Assembly (NCBI GenBank): GCA_029204225.1
Contig: CM055097.1
Location: forward strand, 30,223,785-30,287,784
Length of the DNA stretch: 64,000 bases
Origin: Diphasiastrum complanatum
Taxonomy: Eukaryota > Streptophyta > Lycopodiopsida > Lycopodiales > Lycopodiaceae
Direction: 5' to 3'
The stretch's first letter is position 1. Every line of letters starts with the position of its first letter. Below, in pieces: positions 6,945 through 41,810 of the stretch. The notes below the pieces were generated by a model, which saw only the letters and a list, made by a program, of their open reading frames with translations, was not told where the DNA came from and ran no database searches. A program made the position numbers and the translations under genes.

Positions 6945-7740
6945 AAGGCTACACATAATCGGAGACCAAGAGGATCCATTGATGCAATCACTATTTGCAA
7001 TGAAAAAAATGCAGAAGATCAATGGATACCAAGAATATATCGAAAATATCAATGGATCTTGATGCATCCCTCTACAAAAGGCTCATTCCGAAAAAGAAAA
7101 AGATCAGGTAACATATATAGAAGCTCTTGGAAAGGTAGGATAATGGATTTTAAAGTATCACCTACCGGTCAATCTATCATGAAAGTTTTAGTTCAGCATG
7201 CTTATCTTCACAATGAGCTCAACATTCATGATTTGAATCCAAATGATAGAAGAAAATGCAATTGTAAGTATTCAGATTTATTTTTTTATAGTTAGCATTT
7301 TCGTTAAATTATATTTTTCTTGTGATATTTTTGTTGGTTTTGTAGATTTGTATCCATCAAATTTCATTGAATGGCAAACAGTTTAATCGATTGCAGGAAT
7401 AATCGATGTCATACATTCGGATATCGGTATTTTACAATATAAAGGTCGTTCTCTAAAATCACTTTTAGAGTCAGGAGTTTTCTTTTATGATCACATCTAT
7501 TTTCTTGATAAAAATGGTTTAGTTGGTAGATAAGAGCCATATCCTCTACCAGATTTTTCCAGTGAGGAATGGATTTCTCTTGATGCAGCAATTTCAGAAA
7601 GTTTTTGATCCAGGCTATATATTGATTCATAATATATTAAAATGTAGCACTGGATCAAAGAATAATAGATTAAGTTGGTATCTACCTTTTAATATTTTTG
7701 TTGATTTTTTTTTCCCAAATACAATGTTCTTTTAGGCTCT
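6945..7740 (+). pseudogene. Family X gene, copy 2 (degenerate)
   Basis: Best preserved first half of the family. The start codon has become AAG at 6945; the frame then reads GSIDAITICNEKN, WIPRIYRKYQWILMHPS, a basic segment (RKRKRS), WKGRIMDFKVSP and NDRRKCNC, ending at a GTAAG donor near 7264. The acceptor precedes LYPSNFIEWQ near 7346. Exon 2 (IIDVIHSDIGILQYKGRS, SSEEWISLDAAISESF) holds at least four stops (for example near 7384 and 7530). At the position of the copy 3 TAG near 22587 this copy has TGG (RLSWYLPF), suggesting a nonsense change in copy 3. The 3' part, including the ubiquitin-like module, is missing and copia DNA follows. Confidence 0.7.
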
Positions 7741-7829: not shown

Positions 7830-8640
7830 GATCCAGAGAGACAGAGTGAGAGGACTGATCTATATCACTCAACAAAGGTATCTTCACAATGTTCTTAACA
7901 AATACAATCTAATAAATTGTAAATTAGCTCACTCACCAATGGATCCAAGCCTGTGTTTATCAAAGGACCAATGTCCCCAGACCAAGCAAGACGAGGAGCA
8001 GATGAGAGAGTTTTTTTTTTTTATCGATCGATACTTGGATCTCTCATGTACGCAATGGTCTATACAAGACCAAACATCTCTTTTGTAGTACGCTCACTCA
8101 GCCAATATACGGCTAATCCTGGCATTACCCATTGGAAGGTTCTCATAAGAGTCATGAGGTATATTCGAGCTACCATGGACCAGTGCATCTGCTATGGAGA
8201 AGTCAACAACGACAATTTTCATCAGCTCAGTGAATATTTAGATGCAAGCTGGAGAGGAGATGTAGACAATTGTAAGTCCACATTTGGATTTACATTCTTC
8301 TTCAATGACGGTCCTATCTCATGGAACAGTCGTAAGCAAACCTCTATCACTCTTTCTTCTACAGAAGCAGAATACATTGATGCTTCTCAATCTATTAAAG
8401 AAGCGTTTTGGTTGAGAAATTTACTATCAGACATTAATTTGTATCAGGACAACCCCACAATTTTATTCTGTGATAATCAGAGTGCTATTGTCTTATCAGC
8501 CAGCCCTAAATTTCACTCTAGGAGTAAGCACATTGAAATCAGGTATCACTACATCAGGGGCAAGGTTAATGCACACAACAAATTTCGTGCATTACTTAGT
8601 CTAAAGATCAAGGCATTCACGGATCCAGATTAAGGAGGGG
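7830..8640 (+). pseudogene. Copia RT-end/RNase H fragment
   Basis: The 3' end of a Ty1/copia pol. The first frame (QQRYLHNVLNKYN, then the PMDP motif) passes by a shift in a T-rich run near 8010 to SLMYAMVYTRPNISF and the RNase H region: YLDASWRGD (first acidic positions altered from the usual DADWAGD), SWNSRKQTS, LSSTEAEYI, DNQSAI and SKHIEIRYHYIR. The frame ends at 8631-8633 just before the polypurine tract AAGGAGGGG (8632-8640). Gag, protease, integrase and most of RT are absent. Confidence 0.88.
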
Positions 8641-30274: not shown

Positions 30275-30420
30275 CATTAGGGGAAATATGGGCTTAAAAT
30301 GGATCCTTTCAAAAATTTCACTTTAGAGAGGTTAAGTAGAGAGAGAATGAAAACCGGTAACTTCTGATCACCGTTTTCCGAGTTTTCGGCCTTACCCGAC
30401 GTTTAACTAGTATGGTTAAC
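30275..30420 (+). repeat. Possible family X-type upstream block before gene Y
   Basis: CATTAGGGGAAATATGGGC then AAAATGGATCCTTTC resembles the start of the family X upstream block (TATTAGGGGATATTAGAAC, AAAATGGGCCCTTTC); about two thirds of the first 36 bases agree by eye. It lies about 400 bp 5' of gene Y. Similarity further in is weak. Confidence 0.4.
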
Positions 30421-30679
30421 TTCAGATAATAGTTAGTTAAGCATGAGATGTAATAACTTCTCTTCATGCTCGTTCCAAAATTTGGGACTAGACCTTCAAG
30501 ACTAAAAATCTTGGTGGGCTTAATGCAAAAACTGAAGCGGGAGAGGCAGAACTTTTGAAATCATTGTATGCTTATTGTGAAATATGAAGCGGGACGATTT
30601 TTAAATGCGACATAAACATTACAAAAGTAAGGAATGCTAGATTTATTCATATTGATTTATTGTAGTTTGATTCATTTAC

Positions 30680-32448
30680 ATGATTGTAGCTTTAACAATG
30701 GCAATGTTCCATTTGCATGTTGCTCTTCCGATGGAATGCACTCCAATTATTAAGAAAAATTCGAAAGTTGTAGAGAATGCTGCTGCAATAGTTAGAGAAT
30801 GGAGAATGAATAATCATATGAATATAGATTTGTGGGTGGATGGATCAATTTATCCTAATGATCCAGCTAACTCATCTTCTCAGATATGTATGTGAAGGAA
30901 ATAGCGGATTATTTGGATATTGTCGAAGGTTGTGTGATATTGGAATGCATAGCATATCTTGTCTTAATCAACAATTATAGTTTGCTAATCAACAATTGCA
31001 ACGTGCAAATCAACAATTGCTTCATTATGTGCAACACACTCGTGCTGAAAACAATGCACTCAAGAATGCTATGTCAGAGTTGAATGCTACTGTCACTACT
31101 CTTCGGGGATCAAACCAAGAAATGTTAGAATCCATGAAAAAGTTGCGATCCGAGAGTTTAAAATCTGATGTTGATATAAAAGTTATCAATAAGGTAATGA
31201 TGAAGAGGAAAAGAAAGAGAGTACTGATGAAGAACATTGATGACTTATCTACACATAGCGGCAATCAGAAAAAAAGAATTCGAGTATTCAAGTATGTTGT
31301 CATATAAACTGTTTATTTGATTTGTATATGTCATTTAAGTTTGATTTGCACTTGATAACATGGATTATTTATTTATTAAGCATAATTTGAGTTTCATATG
31401 TTTGTTGCAGATCATGTTTGGTGGCAAAGAACTATTTAACAGATCGTTCATGCATTGGATCATCTTTAAGTCATGTTTTACCAAGAAAGTCAGCAAAAGA
31501 AATGATAAAAAATGCTCGGTTTGAAAAAATGAAAAATGAAATTGTAGAGACTGTTTTGATTAAGGTTCAATCATACTTGGATGCGAATGTGATACAAGGT
31601 GCATGTGATTTATCTGGAATTAGCAGAAATGCTTATTCTACTTTTTTTAGAATAGTTAAAGAAGCTTTTTCCCAAGTGATGGTGAAGAAAATTTATCTTC
31701 CGCATCCATATCGGGTAAGATTAGCTAGAAATTTTTATAATGACGGAATGTTCAAAGTAGTTGGCGAACCACTTCATATAACTGAATTATACAAATCAAA
31801 ATATGGTGAGCTCAATTACAACGATTGTAATAATATTTTCCGTGATATTGGAAATGTTCTAAAATACATTATTCGATTCTATAGACTAGACGAACATCAA
31901 GTAAATGGAAAGATCATTATTGTAATAAAATTGGATGAATCTGAAATCATCATGGGTCAGAAGTTGGAACGAGTGAGTGTCACTTTGATGAACAAAATTT
32001 CAGATACAAATGATCGAACGTTTAGTGTTCAATCAGAAAATCACATATGGTGGTTGGCGGCATTCTAGGTATACATTTCAATTTTTATTTAGAATAACTT
32101 TATCAACAATTCATACCTTGCCAGTTTTTATTGACATGTCATGCATTACTTGTTTCTCTACAGGTCTTGAAAGAGGACCATAAAATACTTTCATGGATAT
32201 TTTCAAGAACAAATTATGGGAAAACTATAAAGAGACATTTGGAGGGTGAGAAATTTACAGTAGAAAACCATGGAAGTTTTCGATTTCAATGGTACCTTGT
32301 AGGGGATTTGAAAACATTAAAATGTATGTATAATGTCTCTCATGGGACAACATCAAAGCATCCATGTCTTTATTGCATGAAAGATTGCTACAATATGGAC
32401 GATCAACAAACACTGGCCCAACACGAGAAGTTGAAGATCCAAATATGA
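30680..32448 (+). pseudogene. Gene Y: coiled coil plus transposase-like core (degenerate)
   Basis: Multi-exon remnant. 30690-30885 encodes a start-like segment (MECTPIIKKN, VVENAAAIVREW). After shifts, 30985-31290 encodes a coiled coil (LQRANQQLLHYVQ, ENNALKNAMSELN) and a lysine-rich segment. The intron runs from GTATG near 31291 to TTGTTGCAG at about 31411. The next exon (to 32068) has an HTH-like piece (LSGISRNAYSTFFRIV) and KIIIVIKLDESEI. It ends in an in-frame TAG beside a possible donor; 32165-32400 continues EDHKILSWIF, YLVGDLKTLKCMY and SKHPCLYC. The order D...GD-x-K...CxxC resembles an uncharacterised protein family I recall from invertebrate and fungal genomes and suggests an RNase H-fold transposase; this is inference. 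No named family assigned. Confidence 0.45.
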
Positions 32449-33038
32449 AAAGTGTTTATTATTCTTTGGATGACAAACGCTCGATGCTTCATTACAACAC
32501 TTCCGGACTGACAAGTTTTGAAAACTTGTTCCAGTATCCAGCCATGACCAAGAAACTAAAGAATTCAATGACGGGTTCTGTGGCTTGTCCCTACCAAAAG
32601 CCACAACAATTACTTAATCATTTAATTGATATTTTTTCTCACCCAGCTGATTGAGTTTTGGATTAATTTAGCGGTAGCGGCACTACGAGCGCATGTGCTG
32701 TTCAAAAAGACAGACATGTTGCTCCAGTAAATTTAGATTCTAATTTAGTTGATTTTATAAAAATGAGAATGAAATCTCTTTCAGTTTTGCCAGATGAATT
32801 ATCTGAGGTGGGAAAGAGTTTAGATAGCGAGGATTCAGTAATTCCCTTGTCCAAAGAACCTCAGTCTCCTGCTAGCGATAAAGTAGGCGATACAGGTGAA
32901 TTTACTGATGTCTTGGTTCAAGATTACAATGTGGTTAGGGTAGTCGAGGAAACTGTAGAAGAGGTGCCACTTGAAACTACAGTGGCTACTCAAGAAAAAG
33001 AAAAAGATGTAAATGACCTCGATGATTTTTGGAAATAA
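32440..33038 (+). pseudogene. C-terminal part of an N4/N6-type DNA methyltransferase domain
   Basis: Shifted one frame from the CLYC segment. It reads VACPYQKPQQLLNHLIDIFS (motif X-like KP..LL..LI), HPAD-stop-VLD-stop-FSGSGTTSA (motif I, normally D-P-F-x-G-x-G-T-T), then a QKDRHV-type segment and VNLDSNLVDFIKMRM (motif II region). The two stops (TGA at 32653 where Trp or Glu is usual; TAA at 32665 where Pro or Leu is usual) are single substitutions. The motif order X then I fits a beta-class methylase whose catalytic (D/N/S)PPY would lie upstream; I do not see it, so that half is lost or replaced by the transposase-like part. An acidic tail (EETVEEVPLE, DLDDFWK) runs to TAA at 33036-33038. 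Either a true fusion with gene Y or a juxtaposed fragment. Confidence 0.6.
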
Positions 33039-33039
33039 A

Positions 33040-33676
33040 ATTTTTTTCTTTTGTTTCAAAAGATAATTGCGTTTATATTTTTTGATGTATTGTGTTTTGA
33101 GATCTTTTTGATTGATTTAATATTTTTAAATTTGTTTTTTAATGATTTAAAATTAAGAGTTTGAAATATTTTAAAAATTTTAACATTGATAATCATTACC
33201 AAAACTAAAATTGTAAAGATTTGTCAAGTTTATAGTATTTTAATTTTGGATGTGTTTTTATAATCTTTTTTTGTAAAAAAAAGTATTGTTAGGAATTTAA
33301 AGAAATGAAAAGATTTTTTTCAGGGTGATTTAAATATTTTCACAAATCATTTAATCTCGATTATTGTAAAGTAATATCATTTGCGTTTATTTAATGTTTA
33401 AATATTCAATGACCTTACATAGGTATAAGTAAACATTTTAAAAAAATTAAAACTTTAAAAAATATTGATTAAAATTTTTATCATAATTTAAAAAATATTT
33501 TTTTCGATACAAGAATCGTAATTTAAAAAACTTTAAGAATTTCAAAAAAAAAAAACTATAATTTTTGTTTTAAATAGACAAAAAATATTTTTTAGTTATT
33601 TTAGTGGTTGTGTATCTAATGATTTTATTTTAAATAGTATTATTATTTTATATGAGCTAATTTTAAGCTATTTAAG
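33040..33676. other. Very AT-rich intergenic DNA
   Basis: Homopolymer-rich A/T sequence with no coding potential, separating the methylase remnant from copia B1. Confidence 0.7.
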
Positions 33677-33938
33677 TTAGAATAAAAGTAGAATTATTGT
33701 GCTACTGTACTGTGGGTCCTATCAGTTGATAAGGATCATCCTCGCCATGAGGCAAGTCGACGGGACACGCGTCCCGCCGACGGCAACTTGGGAGTCATGC
33801 ATGGGTTGCCTGAGTGAACAACTATATGTACAGTGTAATTTCATTTTGAGAAATACAGTTGCTATGTGAGCTTGCTGTAGAGAGTGTTTTATGTCTGTGT
33901 TACTGTGTAGCATGATCTGTGTTCCTATTCGAAGCAAA
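33677..33938 (+). repeat. 5' LTR of copia B1
   Basis: About 262 bp, about 90% or more like the LTRs at 40773 and 42546. It contains the palindrome GGGACACGCGTCCC near 33761 and the conserved segment TGGGTTGCCTGAGTGAACAA. Confidence 0.85.
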
Positions 33939-34952
33939 TTCTAAGTTGGTATCAGAGCCGTACAGGGAGTGTACACAGTACAGCATCGTCATTGAAGAGA
34001 GTTTCGGGAGAACTATCTTATGAGAGTTCGGGGTTTACAATGGGTTGAAGATGGAAAGAGAAGCACCGGTGCACGGTTTCTAGTTTATAGAGGCTTGCCA
34101 ATCTCAGCAGAGGGATTGTCAGCCTGTGCATAGCATCAGACAGGGAAAAATTTGGTGAAAAATTGACAATTTTGAAGCCAGTTGAAACTGAAACCGAGTT
34201 TGGGATTACGGTTTTCTACACATAATTCGTGATTTCTTCGATGTTTGTGCACCGTTTTGGATGTCGTAAGGACAGGAAGGAAGCTAACTATATTGTCAAC
34301 CAGCCATGGAGAGATTATTAGGTTTATGTTAGAGATTTGTCCGCAGACAGTTAACCTAGCAAATTTGCGGTAAAAGGTGAAAAAGCCATTTTGTCAAGTT
34401 GACCTAAAATCATCGTTTCTCCACGGAATTTCATGATTGAACACTCTGGAGACTAAGAATCAGTAAGGCAACCCTGTTCTAGGCCTCAGATCGCGGTCAA
34501 TTTGATCTAAAACAGAGTTTGATCAAGCTAAAAATGGGCAGGATAGGCGCATCCGTAGACAAAGAGAGAGCGTGGCTCGCGCGCGTCCAACCAAGCTGAA
34601 GTCGTAGTGTCTCGAGGGAGCTGGTGTCTCCAAGAAAAGAGTTCGATGCACGGGCAGGCTGGTGACCATAGGATAAGCTCCTGTGTAGATCGACGGTGGT
34701 AATCTGAATAAGGGAGCATCATCGGATCAAAACTGATCATTGGATCTCCTTAAATCCATTTGAATTTCAATGGAAGGGGCCTGAAGTGCAATTCACATTG
34801 CAAATTCATTAAAAATTTTCAAAGTGAAAGTTTAGTTGGGTCCCAAGTTCATGAAAGGTGAAGTTTTTTTATTCTGAAGAAACAGTTCAAAAACAAGAAA
34901 AATCCCTATTTTTGGGTCCTTTGTCCGTTTTGACCCAAACGAAAGGCTATAA

Positions 34953-35021
34953 CCTCCAAACGAAGGGCACCCGGACTGTACCTGCAAGTACGGTATAATT
35001 CGGGTGCCCTTAGTTTGGAGG
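34953..35021. repeat. Strong hairpin in the B1 leader
   Basis: CCTCCAAACGAAGGGCACCC (34953-34972, continuing GG to 34974) pairs with 35000-35021 (GGGTGCCCTTAGTTTGGAGG core) with one mismatch over about 21 bp; the 25-base loop itself contains GTACCTGCAAGTAC. It lies about 40 bp before the gag ATG. B2 has the left arm (about 43828) but not the right. Confidence 0.8.
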
Positions 35022-35061
35022 TACAGTACCTGCAAGTAGAGTATCTGCAAGCAGTTTTGTG

Positions 35062-35755
35062 ATGACAAACATGGGAGAGTCCATTTTGAGTGAAAGTAGC
35101 AAATTGGATAGAATTTCCAACTATGCAGTGTGGAAATTCAAAATGAAAAACATATTGATGGAAAAAGACGTCTGGGAAGTCATCACATGTGATAAGAGAA
35201 GGCCGCCAAATGAAGCGGATATCAAAGTGTTCGACAAAAAGATGAGGAAAGCTTTGACCTTCATTAACTTGTCAGTGAAGGATCACATCATTACCGACAT
35301 TTGTGATGCTGTTACATCCAGACAGGCATGGGATGCACTAAAGGAGCAGTTTGAGATGCCAAATCTGTCAAGAATCATGGTTCTGAAGTCAAAGTTGAAT
35401 AGTGTCTGAATGGAGCAAGGAGAGCACATTCAGACGTACATGACCAGAATCAAGACAATGAGGGATGAACTGCATTCTATTGGTGAGCGCATACGTGATG
35501 TGGAGCTGGTGCACAATGCATTGTTCAGCATTGCAGAACCCTATTGGATGTTTGTGAGCGGAATAGCATCAAGAGAACGATTGCCAACCTTTGATGAGCT
35601 CATAGGAATCTTGATGTAGGAAGAGCAACAATGAAAAATGGTGAAAGTTAGACGTCAAAATACTGACGATCAGGCACTTGCGACACGCCAAAAACAAGGC
35701 AAGGGCAAGGGCAAGAAAAAGTCTAAACAACAATTTGCCAAGACTCAGGAGGATT
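35062..35755 (+). pseudogene. Copia B1 gag fragment
   Basis: UBN2-type gag: MTNMGESILSES, YAVWKFKMKNILMEKDVW, then an in-frame TGA at 35407 where B2 has CGC, then MEQGEHIQTYMTRIKTM and a further TAG near 35617. It reaches the basic KGKGKKKSK segment before the zinc knuckle and stops at 35755, just before element C. Confidence 0.85.
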
Positions 35756-35767
35756 AGGGATCTTCCT

Positions 35768-38700
35768 GTCAAGAATTAGATATGCAACGTCAAGCAATCA
35801 CCATAAGCAATCACCACAAGAAAGCGGAAGAAGAACACGCACTGTCACTCTATCACACTAACTCATACAGAATGTAAAATGTACAAATAAACCCTGAACA
35901 TCCTGATAGAGAGAGAACACCTACGAGTAGACTAATAGACTAGAATACAACTATTGACAGCTGGTCACAACTGTCAACATTAATGTGCATCGTAAACAGT
36001 AACAATGAAGCTTATCATTGATTTTTAACACTCTCCCTCAATGATAAAATTACATTTTCCTATCCCTAATAGAGTACGAAACCTCTCAAATTTACATCTA
36101 CCTAATGACTTAGTAGAAATATCTGTCTTTTGATCTTCAGATTTACAGAAAACAAGATCAATGGCTCCATCAAGAATTTTCTCTCAAACAAAATGGTAGT
36201 GTATTTCGATGTGCTTGGTTCGAGCATGTAAAACTGGATTTTTGGCAAGGTGAATGCAACTTTGATTATCGCAAGATATAGTAGTCGCATCCACCTGTGG
36301 TTGACCTAAATCCACAAGCAATCTTCGTAACCATACTGCTTCTTGTGTAGCATTGCTAAGTGCTCGATATTCAGCTTCTGTCGATGATAAGGCTACTGTA
36401 GGCTGTTTTTTGCTGCTCCATGATATTGCAGTTGTACCATAGCTGAATATATGACCACCTGTAGATCTTCTGTCATCAATATTGCCTGCCCAAGCGGCAT
36501 ACTGTGTAACCTACCAACATTGGCATTTCAGGCTGATCATACTTCAAACCAAAATTCAATGTCCCTCGAATGTATCTAAGAATACGTTTAGCAGACTTCT
36601 AGTGTGCTTGACTAGGATCTTGCATAAATTGACTAACAACACCAACAACATAAGAAATATCAGGTCGTGTGTGTGCCAAATAAATCAAACTATGTCAATA
36701 CAAATAAGCATCCACTTTCTCAGATTCATCATATGCAGTAAGCTTCATGTTGACATCCATAGGTGTACTCAAAGGCTTACAATCTTGCATATTGAACTTA
36801 TAAAGCAAATCTCATGCATATTTGCTTTGTGTAAGAAAGACCATGTCTTCCTTTTGCCATACTTCAATGCCAAGACAATAGTGCATCAATCCTAGATCAC
36901 TCATGTCAAAAGCTTTGGAAAGATCTGATTTTATTTCATCAATTAAGCTCTCATTACTTCCCGTAATAATCAAATCATCCACATACAACACAATGAACAC
37001 TATATCTGAATCTTACCTTAGAATGTAAAGATTAGGATCAACATCACTCTTTATCATTCCCCTTTGCTTGAAGTGTTCATCAATGCAAGAGTACCATGCC
37101 CGTGGTGCTTGCTTCAATCCATAAATGGCTTTGTTGAGCTTACAAACGAGATGCTCTCTCCCTGGCTCAACAAATCCTTGAGGTTGTACTATGTACACCT
37201 CTTCATCCAGCACTCCATTAAGAAAAGCAGATTTAACGTTCATTTGTTGGATCTTCCAACCATAGAAAGCAGAAATAGCAATGATAGAACATATAGTTAC
37301 CATCTTAGCTACGGGTGCGAAGGTTTCTTCAAAATCAATACCTTCCTGCTGCTCAAATCCTCTTGCAACCAACCGTGATTTATACTTGTTGAGTTGCCCA
37401 TCAACTACATATTTGATCTTGTATATCCATTTGCAAGTGATAGGCATCTTACCATCAGGTAGCTCAACCAAGTTCCACGTCCTATTTTTCAATATAGCTT
37501 CCATTTCTGTTTCCATAGCTTCACGCCACTCCTTGTGCTCCTTTGATTTATCAAAAGTTTTTGGTTCCTGAGCCTTGAGCACAGAACCCATTAGGGCTAG
37601 ATTCATCTCTAATCTTGCAGGAGGTTTTCGATTTCTACTTGATCTTCTAAGCTCTCCCTGCTCACTTGATTCGGGAGTATTTCCCTTATTAGCATCACTT
37701 GTTACTGAGTACCACTTAGGCACTCTCCTAGGAATCTCATAATTGACCCTGTCTTTTTCCATTGGCTCTTCCATATTGACACCAACTTCTTTCTTCACTT
37801 GCATTTTAGCTTTATCATCAAAGGGATCAATTGCCAATTTTATTTGATCATTTTGACCCATCTCATCAAAAGTAGCATCTTTGGAAATCATGATCTTTTG
37901 TGCATCTGTGTCATACATCCTGTATGCCTTGGCTCTTTTATCATATCCAAGGAAAATACACTTAACAGCTTTTGCATCTAGTTTCTTTCGTTTTTCATCA
38001 GGTACATGAGCGTAAGCATCACAGCCAAATATTCGTAAATGAGAAACATTAGGTTTCTTTCCAGTAAAAGCTTCGTAAGGTGTCTTACCCTCCACAGACT
38101 TCGTAGGACACCGATTCAAGATATGAGTAGCTGTGTTGCATGCTTCTACCCAGAAAGTATTTGGCAAACCCTTGTTCTTAGGCATTACCCTAGCCATCTC
38201 CACAATGGATCTGTTTTTCCGTTCTGCAACTCCGTTCTGTTGTGATGAATAGGGTGTAGTGGTTTGTCTCTTGATCCCCTGATCCTTGCATAAATCTATA
38301 AACTCTGTTGAAAAATACTCACCGCCACCATCTGATCTGAGGGTCTTAATATAACAACCTGTTTGTTTTTCAACTAGAGCCTTGAACTCTCTAAACTTGG
38401 CAGAAGCATCAGATTTCTTGCTTATGAAATAAATCCAGATATGTCTACTATGGTCATCAATGAATGTGATGAAATAATAACAACCACTAATGGACCTAGT
38501 TTGTATTGGTCCACACAGATCACTATGAACAAGATCAAGAATGCCATTGGCTCTTCTTGCTCCATCTTTGGGAAATCTCTCTCTATGCTATTTTATTGAT
38601 ATGACCAAACCTTTAATGCCAAAGATCACTTCGACTATCAACAATGCTTACCATAGCTTGAGTAAAAGATCTCGCATTCAATTTGTAAAGTCGATTCCCG

Positions 38701-39370
38701 TTGACTCTAGCTCCTGTAGCAATCACTTTGTAGTGATTCTTGATGTTTTTGACAAGACATTTGTCACTGTCAAACTCAACCTTGAGTTGTTGATCAGCCA
38801 TCGTCCCAACAGATAGTAGATTGTTAGCTAAGCCAGGTACATATTGCACATTGCTTATATGCTTTATCTTCCCGTTGGCTAACTTCACTGGTACCACTCC
38901 AACTCCTTTAACAGATAGCAATTTGCCATCAGCTTGTCCAACTTCATCACCATTGTCAGTTTTCTTGAGTTCTGAAAACCACTCTTTCCTTGAAGTCATG
39001 TGCTTGGATGCACCACTATCAATGTACCAGGTATCCTTGGCTTCGTCACTTGTCATTAATGCTGTAATGAACAATTTTGAACTCTCACCTATGTCATCTT
39101 CATATTGATCATCATCGTATTGATGTTGATCAGTATAATTGTCTTCATAATAATAGTCATCAAATTGATGTTGATCAGCGTAATTTCCCGCTTGCCATCT
39201 GTCTTTTCTTTGTTCCATCTCCTTCTGTTTCTTGAAGCATTCATGCTCCTAGTGACCAGGTTAGTTGCAGTACCTACAATTTCCAAGTTTGTTTTGTCTT
39301 GAATAGCCGTGTCCTTGACCTCGGTCTTGATTCCAATTATCTCGATTCGGACTATCATTGACTTGCTCAT
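35768..39370 (-). mobile_element. 5'-truncated copia C nested in B1
   Basis: Minus-strand copia lacking its 5' LTR and most of gag. The 3' LTR is about 35768-36030 (TGTTAAAAATCAATG on the minus strand), preceded by the purine tract TGAGGGAGAG. Reading 39370 downwards: a zinc knuckle with two stops (CRYC...HEC); protease DTWYIDSGASKHMTS near 39030; integrase in 38600-38000 (MPKNKGLPNTFWVEA) with its first part frameshifted; RT 38203-37013 (ETFAPVAKMVTICSI, YGLKQAPRAWYS) broken before FIVLYVDDLIITGSNE (37000-36812); RNase H 36700-36110 with several stops. Non-functional. Its ends in B1 sit at GATCTTCCTGT and TATGAGGACCATGTCC. Confidence 0.85.
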
Positions 39371-39384
39371 GAAATTGTTGAAAT

Positions 39385-40760
39385 ATGAGGACCATGTCCT
39401 TAGGTAAAGCCTTATATTTCATGACCTTTATTGATGATATGTCACGTAAGATGTGGATCTACTTCTTGAAGAAGAAATCGGATGCATTAGACAATTTCAA
39501 GAGCTTCAAAGCATTGGTTGAAAATCAGACAAGTAGGAAGATCAAAGTCCTAAGATCAGATAGTGGAGGTGAGTACATGTCTAATGACTTCAATGATCTT
39601 TGTGATCAATGTGAGATTAAAAGACAATTTACGCAAGCTCATACTCCTGCTCTCAATGGTGTAGTTGAGCACAAGAATCGTACGATTGTAGAAAGTGCCA
39701 GATCTATGCTAGCTGAGATGAAACTACCAAAAGATTTTTGGTCAGAAGCATGCAGTATGGTAGTCTATCTTCAAAATAGAAGTCCTACCATTGCCATACC
39801 AAAGCTAAAACCTGAGGAAGCATTCACAAAGAAGAAGCCAAAGGTGAACCACTTGCAAATCTTTGGATGTAAGGCCTTTTTACACATTCCTAAGGAAGAG
39901 AGACATAAACTTGATGTAAAAGCTATCAAGTGTATATTCCTAGGATATGATGATCGTGTGAAGGGCTATAGATGTTTTGATCCAATGGAAAACAAAATCC
40001 ATGTAAGCCGAGATGTTATCTTTGATGAATCCAAGATGTATGAAGACGAGGATGCTGAGAAGATAGACACATCTAGTGGGAAAGATGGTATAGTGAGGAT
40101 ACCTCCTGATGATGATCCATTCATTGACCTTCCAAGTGATGAATATGAGGATACATCTCAAGATACTACTACTCAACCTCAAGAGACAGGTTCGAGAGGT
40201 AGAAACAAACCTTTTGGTGCGAGAAGGATTGAAGTTGCAGGTGACAAACGCAAGGAGAAAGATGTACCGTGGGATACATTTTCACCAGGAAGCCGATCAC
40301 TTGACTGGAAGCTCCCTAAGTGGTTTGAGAGATTGTTGGAGAGCCACGACATGGATGACTTTCCAGGATCATCTAGCCAGGGAGAGCTATGAAGATCAAC
40401 AAGAGAGAAGAAACAACATGAAACGTATGAAGCAAATTATGCTCTCTTATCCAGCATTATTCAAAGCAAAGAACCTTTGACTTATGGTGAAGCGAAGGAT
40501 GATGACATTTGGGTCAAGGCCATGGGAGAGGAGATGGAGTCAATTGCTAAGCATAGCACATGGGACTTAGTAGAATCACCAATTGGCAAGAAACCCATTG
40601 GTTGCAAATGAGTATACAGGACTAAGTACCATGCAGATGGAAGTATAGCAAAGCACAAGGCAAGATTGGTGATAAGGGTATGCACAAAGTAAAGGCATCG
40701 ACTATGAAGAGACCTTTGCACCAGTGTGTAAGTGGAATACTCTACGTCTACTTGTTGCTT
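39385..40760 (+). pseudogene. Copia B1 integrase/RT fragment
   Basis: Resumes B1 pol inside the integrase core: YFMTFIDDMSRKMWIYFLKK, LRSDSGGEYMSNDF and LNGVVEHKNRTIVES, followed by the hinge to 40392 (TGA). After the stop the RT region begins (ESYE/ETYE segment, WVKAMGEEMESI, KGIDYEETFAP) with further stops near 40608 and a frameshift at 40676, and ends in mid-RT near 40760 at the polypurine tract. Confidence 0.85.
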
Positions 40761-40772
40761 TAAGAGAGAGAG

Positions 40773-41034
40773 TTAGAATTAAAGTAAAATCACTGTGCTA
40801 CTGTACTGTGGGTCATATCAGTTGATAAGGATTAGTTGGCCTCGCCACGAGGCAAGTCGATGGGACACGCGTCCCGCCGACGGCAAACTGGGTCATGCAT
40901 GGGTTGCCTGAGTGAACAACTATGTACAATGTAATTTCATTTTGAGAAATACAGTTGCTATGTGAGCTTGCTGGAGAGAGGGTTTTCTGTCTGTACTACT
41001 GTGTAGCATGATCTGTGTTCTTGTTCAAAGCAAA
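40773..41034 (+). repeat. 3' LTR of copia B1
   Basis: Directly preceded by AAGAGAGAGAG (polypurine tract) and ending GTTCAAAGCAAA. It keeps the GGGACACGCGTCCC palindrome. Confidence 0.85.
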
Positions 41035-41344
41035 TAAGTATTTATAAAAACCTATTGACCAAATTTTTGTAGCTTGAATTATTTTCTTGCAAAATACAAC
41101 ATTTTTTTAACATTACAATATATATATTTGAATCATTTTAAATTTGGATAATTATAAAAAAAAATTAAAAAATCTGAAAAAAATGGGTCTCCATGTTATT
41201 TCTCTTTTTTTTGGTCATCATGTTATCTGCATTTCTATTGCAGGTTATCAGTCTTATTTCTACCAAAACATTGTTCAACAAGTGCACAACCAACTATATT
41301 CCAATATTATTGTTTCTACCAATGATCTCTCACTCTATACCAGA

Positions 41345-41810
41345 ATGGATCCATCTTCTAGTTCATCTTTGGTCGACAAACTCGATGGAGATAACTACCA
41401 TATATGGAAGTTCAAGATGAAAGTAGTTCTACTTACCAAAGAATTGTAGGACATAGTTGATGGCACAGAGGTCAAGCCAGAAGGTGATGCAACAATCATC
41501 ACCAAATGGAGATTGAGAGATGGCAAGGCATTTGCCATGATTACTCTCAAATCAACCATATACGAGCTATTCAGACTGCTAAGGATGCATGGGACATCCT
41601 AGCAGCTCTTTACGATATCAGGGACGTCACTTCCAAACTTCATTTGAGGAAAAAAAATTTCACCCTAAGAATGTCTAAAGCAGATAGTGTTTCGAGTCAT
41701 CTCAACACTTTGAAAAGTCTTATGGAGAAGATGACAGCAACTGGCTCAGTCATTGAAGATTCCAATGCACTCATGACTCTATTATCGAGTCTACTTGATG
41801 TATGAAAATT
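41345..41810 (+). pseudogene. Copia D gag fragment
   Basis: MDPSSSSSLVDKLDGDNYHI with WKFKMKVVLLTKEL, then TAG at 41447, WRLRDGKAFAMITL, a one-base shift, and TAKDAWDILAALYDIRD, LRKKNFTLRMSKADSVSSHL up to a TGA near 41803. Typical UBN2 gag of a copia lineage different from B. No pol follows; B2 begins about 740 bp downstream. Confidence 0.8.

Follow-up and report, generated by a model that had tools for sequence, protein, structure and literature searches.

The locus raises the question of whether a bacterial-type DNA methylase segment, recognised beside a transposase-like core in a plant genome, is real and, if so, whether it belongs to a mobile element. The window, that is, the whole 64-kb stretch analysed (C6:30223785-30287784 in the 1.745-Gb assembly), contains at 32571-33038 an in-frame translation reading CPYQKPQQLLNHLIDIFSHPAD, stop, VLD, stop, FSGSGTTSACAVQKDRHVAPVNLD...NDLDDFWK, and all the elements that the original prediction had named (KP..LL..LI, FSGSGTT, the subsequent strand and the acidic tail) are present in it. 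With X placed at the stops, positions 32571-33035 matched PF01555 (N6_N4_Mtase; E = 3.6e-11, 43.9 bits against a cut-off of 26.7) over profile positions 163-217 of 221, which is not a chance match. The spliced exons 5-6 of another genomic copy, designated copy A (L029+L017), matched the same profile over positions 3-217 of 221 (E = 7.2e-13, 49.4 bits against 26.7). Consequently, the methylase segment is real, and the outcome of a profile search without a significant match is ruled out by both copies. The two predicted nonsense codons were found, whereas no frameshift occurs inside 32571-33035, the frame changes being located upstream. The features of the window are given in Table 1.

Table 1. 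Positions of the methylase-element fragment and of the adjoining or inserted repeats in the window.
Feature	Position	Strand	Basis
T2, degenerate transposase-like repeat, separate from the methylase element	~30275..32452	+	abundance, co-location counts
E6 (last-exon) methyltransferase fragment, two stops inside	32453..33038	+	DNA alignment and PF01555
Motif X region CPYQKP	32586..32603	+	translation; PYQKP retained in 4/4 deep copies
In-frame stops flanking VLD	TGA 32652-32654, TAA 32664-32666	+	translation
Motif I FSGSGTT, SAM-binding loop	32667..32687	+	translation, PF01555
3' non-coding portion of the methylase element	33039..33674	+	DNA alignment to fetched loci
Copia-type LTR element inside the methylase element	~33675..41034 (ends approximate)	+	alignment gap, LTRs
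Methylase element right end	41035..41224	+	ends with the 12-bp terminal repeat ggtcatcatgtt at 41213-41224

The degenerate upstream protein also exists (GDLK...CLYC at 32098-32448), with no significant Pfam match for it or for the ORFs of 30671-32448; the best weak match upstream was to PF01555 (0.005), in an ORF running into the methylase part. This region belongs to the repeat T2, which is more abundant than the methylase family (11,245 first-look candidates in the genome) and whose portion 30275-31545 matches locus L021 at 91.6% in the opposite orientation. T2, with its GDLK...CxxC region, possibly represents an undescribed family. It had been proposed that a single mobile element encodes both the degenerate transposase upstream and the methylase, and the two do adjoin on the same strand in the window; moreover, T2-like pieces lie near some other fetched methylase loci (A, its duplicate L024, L021, sL004 and L062). 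However, their position and orientation vary from locus to locus, and the similarity of methylase loci to the window is lost sharply at the T2 boundary. Of the 20 fetched loci, 19 start to align at 32453 or 32456 and the remaining one at 32474. Among the best 150 of 11,245 T2 matches, two had a listed methylase locus nearby, where 0.66 would be expected: the copy in the window and a second one at a distance of 14.5 kb. The adjacency in the window appears to be a matter of chance, because just two of the 150 listed T2 matches are near a methylase and one of these is the window itself; that both parts form one element is thus very improbable, and this portion of the original prediction is disfavoured.

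Downstream of the coding part, the alignment with the fetched loci reaches 33674 in 16 of 20 cases and stops earlier in four, and it picks up again at 41035, 41039 or 41080 in 18 of 20 (82.6-92.1% identity over whole alignments). The LTRs of the intervening Copia element are 89.6% identical across 269 aligned bases. Because of the shared start at 32453/32456 and the right piece resuming at 41035-41080, the window copy is read as a right-hand, 5'-truncated and decayed fragment that is split by Copia and reaches 41224. Since the Copia element sits within it, the methylase copy predates that insertion. The right flank (41225-41500) resembles Copia gag sequence by eye, so the methylase element may have inserted into a retrotransposon that was there before it.

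The structure of the element was read from other copies. A search of the genome with the 155-residue window query gave 2744 first-look candidates, the best 150 of which had 74-86% identity apart from the window itself; 20 stretches of 10 kb were fetched around methylase loci, and two loci were then extended leftwards. Copies A and B align across 7.1 + 1.9 kb with 90-91% identity and define an element of ~9.1 kb that is bounded by imperfect inverted repeats of 12 bp and flanked by target duplications of 4 bp. Left ends start with AACACGATGACA and right ends finish with GGTCATCATGTT, or with close variants; 10 of 12 bases agree, by inspection, when the left AACACGATGACA is set against the complemented right end. 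Both ends were available for copy A and for five of six further probed copies (C22 had no right end in the fetched stretch), and a perfect duplication was found in five of these six (A, C9, C578, C5 and C1; AACT, TTAA, TTTA, GTAG and AATC), with three of four bases agreeing in C11. The left part carries on the minus strand a DUF7869 (PF25273) gene in several ORF pieces, separated by either introns or frameshifts (E = 8.4e-49), and the right part carries on the plus strand the methylase gene, for which a model of six exons is proposed, with GT..AG borders in A and B, some of them mutated in copy A. The two genes diverge, each being read away from a palindrome array. The DUF7869 gene is missing from the window fragment.

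Because of the inverted ends and the 4-bp target duplications, the element is classified as a terminal-inverted-repeat DNA transposon. The 5'-truncated copies and the sharp 3' end had suggested a LINE or a retrogene, which was ruled out by the left end, the inverted repeats, the 4-bp duplications and the intron-like gaps. Placement within the ends and abundance point to the DUF7869 protein, a Pfam family of unknown function, as the putative transposase. No intact copy was found among those read, all having stops, frameshifts, gaps or truncations.

Association of the two genes was evaluated from the best 150 of 2744 (exon 6), 2472 (exon 5) and 4166 (DUF7869) candidates, as for the best 150 of 11,245 T2 matches, and the values below are co-location counts, not rates. 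Thirty of the best 150 of 4166 DUF7869 candidates lay within 15 kb of a listed methylase match, against 0.66 expected after merging of methylase exons; these pairs include segmental or haplotype duplicates. Among these listed pairs, 25 of 30 were on opposite strands, 18 of them 3.5-6.5 kb apart. The remaining 120 of 150 listed DUF7869 matches had no listed methylase within 15 kb, for which restriction to the best 150 could by itself account. In a prospective test (n = 1), the position of exon 6 was predicted from a DUF7869 match and a palindrome array, and the 501 bases fetched there were exon 6, with up to 94.8% identity to L012. DUF7869 matches fall into two groups by profile start (position 1 or ~4); the prospectively tested copy belongs to the second, so that the one copy probed in that group had the methylase. 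Beside the divergent methylases L062, L063 and L067, DUF7869 was not found at the expected offset in any of three narrow probes (1.2-1.9 kb), for which positions may shift.

The spliced exons 5-6 of copy A also matched the NCBIfam CcrM model (6.4e-10, yet far under the model's cut-off) and phage DNA methyltransferase families. A five-copy profile compared with PDB found RsrI (1e-8), CcrM (1e-7) and MboIIA (8.7e-7) ahead of the cytosine-N4 enzyme PvuII. With these bacterial beta-class 6mA enzymes the family shares, besides profile similarity, the location of motif IV ahead of X and I, and it differs from them in its introns, its long unmatched N-terminal part and its acidic tail. A fold search with the predicted model of the window fragment, confident at residues 62-125 only, likewise had RsrI as the top match (E = 8.7e-4), but with a TM-score of 0.23 and an rmsd of 11.4. 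Motif IV, upstream of X and I, was DIPY in 15 of 20 readable copies (ADIPY in 12 of them) and NIPY, DVPY, DMPY or DITY in the other five; one further copy was gapped there and four loci lacked the stretch. In a separate set of four copies it was DIPY in two and changed in two. SPPY occurred in none of the 20 readable copies, and DIPY deviates from DPPY as well. Under the SPPY/DPPY rule (PMC8885841), DIPY rather than SPPY together with the nearest solved structures makes a predicted 6mA writer more likely than a 4mC writer.

The form of motif IV could also indicate an accessory DNA-binding protein, a methyltransferase acting on RNA or protein, or a catalytically dead binder, and the absence of significant Pfam matches in exons 1 and 2 is compatible with this. 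Against it, the leading profile matches are to DNA methylases from bacteria and phages, a methylase of viral contig L050 has ADIPYN as its own motif IV, and 20 of 28 copies have kept FSGSGTT unaltered, so that such a role is regarded as improbable. A ParB domain N-terminal to the methylase, as in the ParB-methylase fusions of phages, seemed likely by eye in exon 2 but was not supported (hhalign probability of 0.3%, not better than for 20 shuffled controls; no Pfam match).

Several candidate origins of the gene were rejected. Identity to phage and plasmid proteins was 22-30% (among the 15 listed of 98 records and the 10 listed of 83, respectively), and that to short segments of six viral contigs was 27-43%, which excludes a close source among them; a contig scan for such a source with two peptide patterns gave 214 stretches, none of which was confirmed. 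A host single-copy methylase was not obtained either: among the best 150 of 1605 PF01555 candidates, eight loci were read, and all eight belonged to the same family. Viral contig L066 (719-2794) appears by eye to encode one long protein that combines, in a single frame, parts resembling a cytosine methylase, ParB and an N6/N4 methylase.

Selection on the methylase was estimated from divergent copies read at eight loci and from recent copies with more than 80% of an exon in one match (15 for E6, 6 for E5 and 10 for E1 of 28 sequences); eight short search loci were left out as repeats. L024, which is 98.1% identical to L017 through segmental duplication, stayed in wherever it reached the 80% threshold, and the rows are accordingly not all independent. 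Over exon-6 codons 1-130, L056 differed from the main family with dN of 0.10-0.12 and dS of 0.94-1.25 (dN/dS ~0.1), which is attributed to purifying selection; over codons 61-130 alone, dS was 0.44-0.66 and the ratio ~0.2. For L053, L054, L057 and L059 against the main family, over the same codons 1-130, dN was 0.20-0.28 and dS was 1.4 or more or saturated, and among L053, L057 and L059 themselves the ratio was ~0.5-0.7. The tail of the methylase evolves faster. Motifs X and I were retained in all four deep copies, whose exon 6 has ~60-65% identity to that of the main family. Pairwise dN/dS among recent copies was 0.42-0.57, and in 15 of them the spectrum-corrected ratio, with the neutral expectation drawn from the mutation spectrum of those same copies, was 0.91 on terminal branches (P = 0.27 against neutrality) and 0.65 on internal branches (P = 0.02), where N 71 and S 40 were under the neutral share.

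Captured gene fragments occur in plant transposons, and it could be supposed that the transposon acquired a methylase on a single occasion and has since multiplied it as an unused passenger. In favour of this, decay is seen in the copies read, and their terminal branches are neutral and not significantly different from the internal ones (Fisher P = 0.18); on the other hand, the domain is near-complete, and neither the low ratio for L056 nor the motifs kept in the deep copies is easily reconciled with such a passenger, which is considered quite improbable. Because ratios to divergent copies are low and terminal branches are near-neutral, the methylase lineage appears to have been long constrained while individual copies decayed. 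Thus, the idea that a mobile element carries a prokaryote-type methylase of its own finds support in other copies, as indicated by the near-complete domain, inverted ends, 4-bp duplications, DUF7869 linkage and purifying selection, although the neighbouring core is not its gene and the linked DUF7869 candidate lies several kb off on the other strand. As judged from sequence, the methylase claim is right and stronger than originally worded, the adjoining transposase is a coincidence, and the true element is the one read from other copies.

Palindromes similar to CCTATGCTnAGCATAGG (≤3 changes) occur between the divergent genes and in introns, 16 in stretch A and 17 in stretch B; in copy A, the array occupies ~7137-7610, and the intron sites are at 8222, 10031 and 10115 (introns 1 and 4). 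Among the spacings, 75 of 138 in the 15 commonest classes are 40-42 bp. The exact 17-mer CCTATGCTnAGCATAGG was found at 2,141 places in the genome, and the reversed control at none. At divergent loci, 12 cores with ≤1 change (seven exact) were found against 0.35 expected, in four of six loci (none in L053 and L060); the loci had already been inspected before this test, which omitted L055 and L058 as being close to the main family. Among recent copies, palindromes were no better conserved than spacers (0.924 vs. 0.928). The downstream flanks of 19 loci contained 20 exact cores in 68 kb, explained in part by a second element copy in L019, and the 64-kb window contained no exact core and four one-change cores. 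A role in regulation or as a methylation target is proposed for the array.

Taken as a whole, including the mechanism, the explanation that the window holds a decayed copy, truncated at its 5' end, of a DNA transposon with a beta-class amino-methyltransferase as regular cargo is given a probability of about 0.75. The DUF7869 protein would move the element by cut and paste, and the methylase would be an active adenine-N6 writer or, less likely, a cytosine-N4 writer. A methylase with marks of past selection suggests that the element marks DNA, perhaps its own, and the palindrome array and the intron sites would be candidate targets. Adenine methylation tunes some bacterial transposons; by analogy, such marking would favour transposase expression or escape from host silencing, after which copies, that of the window included, would decay neutrally. 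A narrower version, in which the element's own methylase recognises the arrayed and intronic ATGCTnAGCAT and methylates new copies as a switch for the two genes or as a silencing shield, is possible but doubtful; if true, it would represent a DNA transposon of eukaryotes that comes equipped with a modification circuit of bacterial style.

The element was compared with known systems, the Repbase classification (PMC4455052) included. The 4-bp target duplications and short inverted ends are traits of Sola elements, the comparison being one of ends: Sola2 transposons with Fanzor cargo are described with 12-13-bp inverted ends and 4-bp target duplications (PMC3627910), and they share with the present element the length of the ends, the duplications and a layout in which the transposase and an accessory gene occupy different parts. 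The likeness concerns ends and layout; the present element has a DNA methyltransferase as its cargo. The Mariner elements of large viruses encode a transposase, an endonuclease and a methyltransferase (PMC3627910) and are likewise DNA transposons with their own methyltransferase; however, their methyltransferases are of other families and accompanied by the endonuclease, and they are virus-borne, whereas the present element is a high-copy nuclear resident. Retrotransposons, including those of a charophyte alga, are also mobile elements bearing DNA methylase genes, but these encode cytosine-5 methyltransferases or Dam-like adenine methylases (PMC5890265), unlike the PF01555 gene carried here by a DNA transposon. 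The N4CMT of bdelloid rotifers is a bacterial-type amino-methyltransferase in a eukaryotic genome as well; it is encoded by the host, contains SPPY and a chromodomain, and acts on transposons (PMC8885841), whereas the present gene has DIPY and is carried by the transposon. The present case, in which a high-copy DNA transposon has a beta-class methylase among its genes and under constraint, differs from every one of these relatives. In the open literature searched, no earlier report of a bacterial-type amino-methylase conserved in a high-copy DNA transposon of a large eukaryotic genome was found; one may exist elsewhere. If active, the enzyme would be a source of 6mA or 4mC belonging to a parasite, could confuse methylome surveys, and would offer an entry route for bacterial methylases into eukaryotes.
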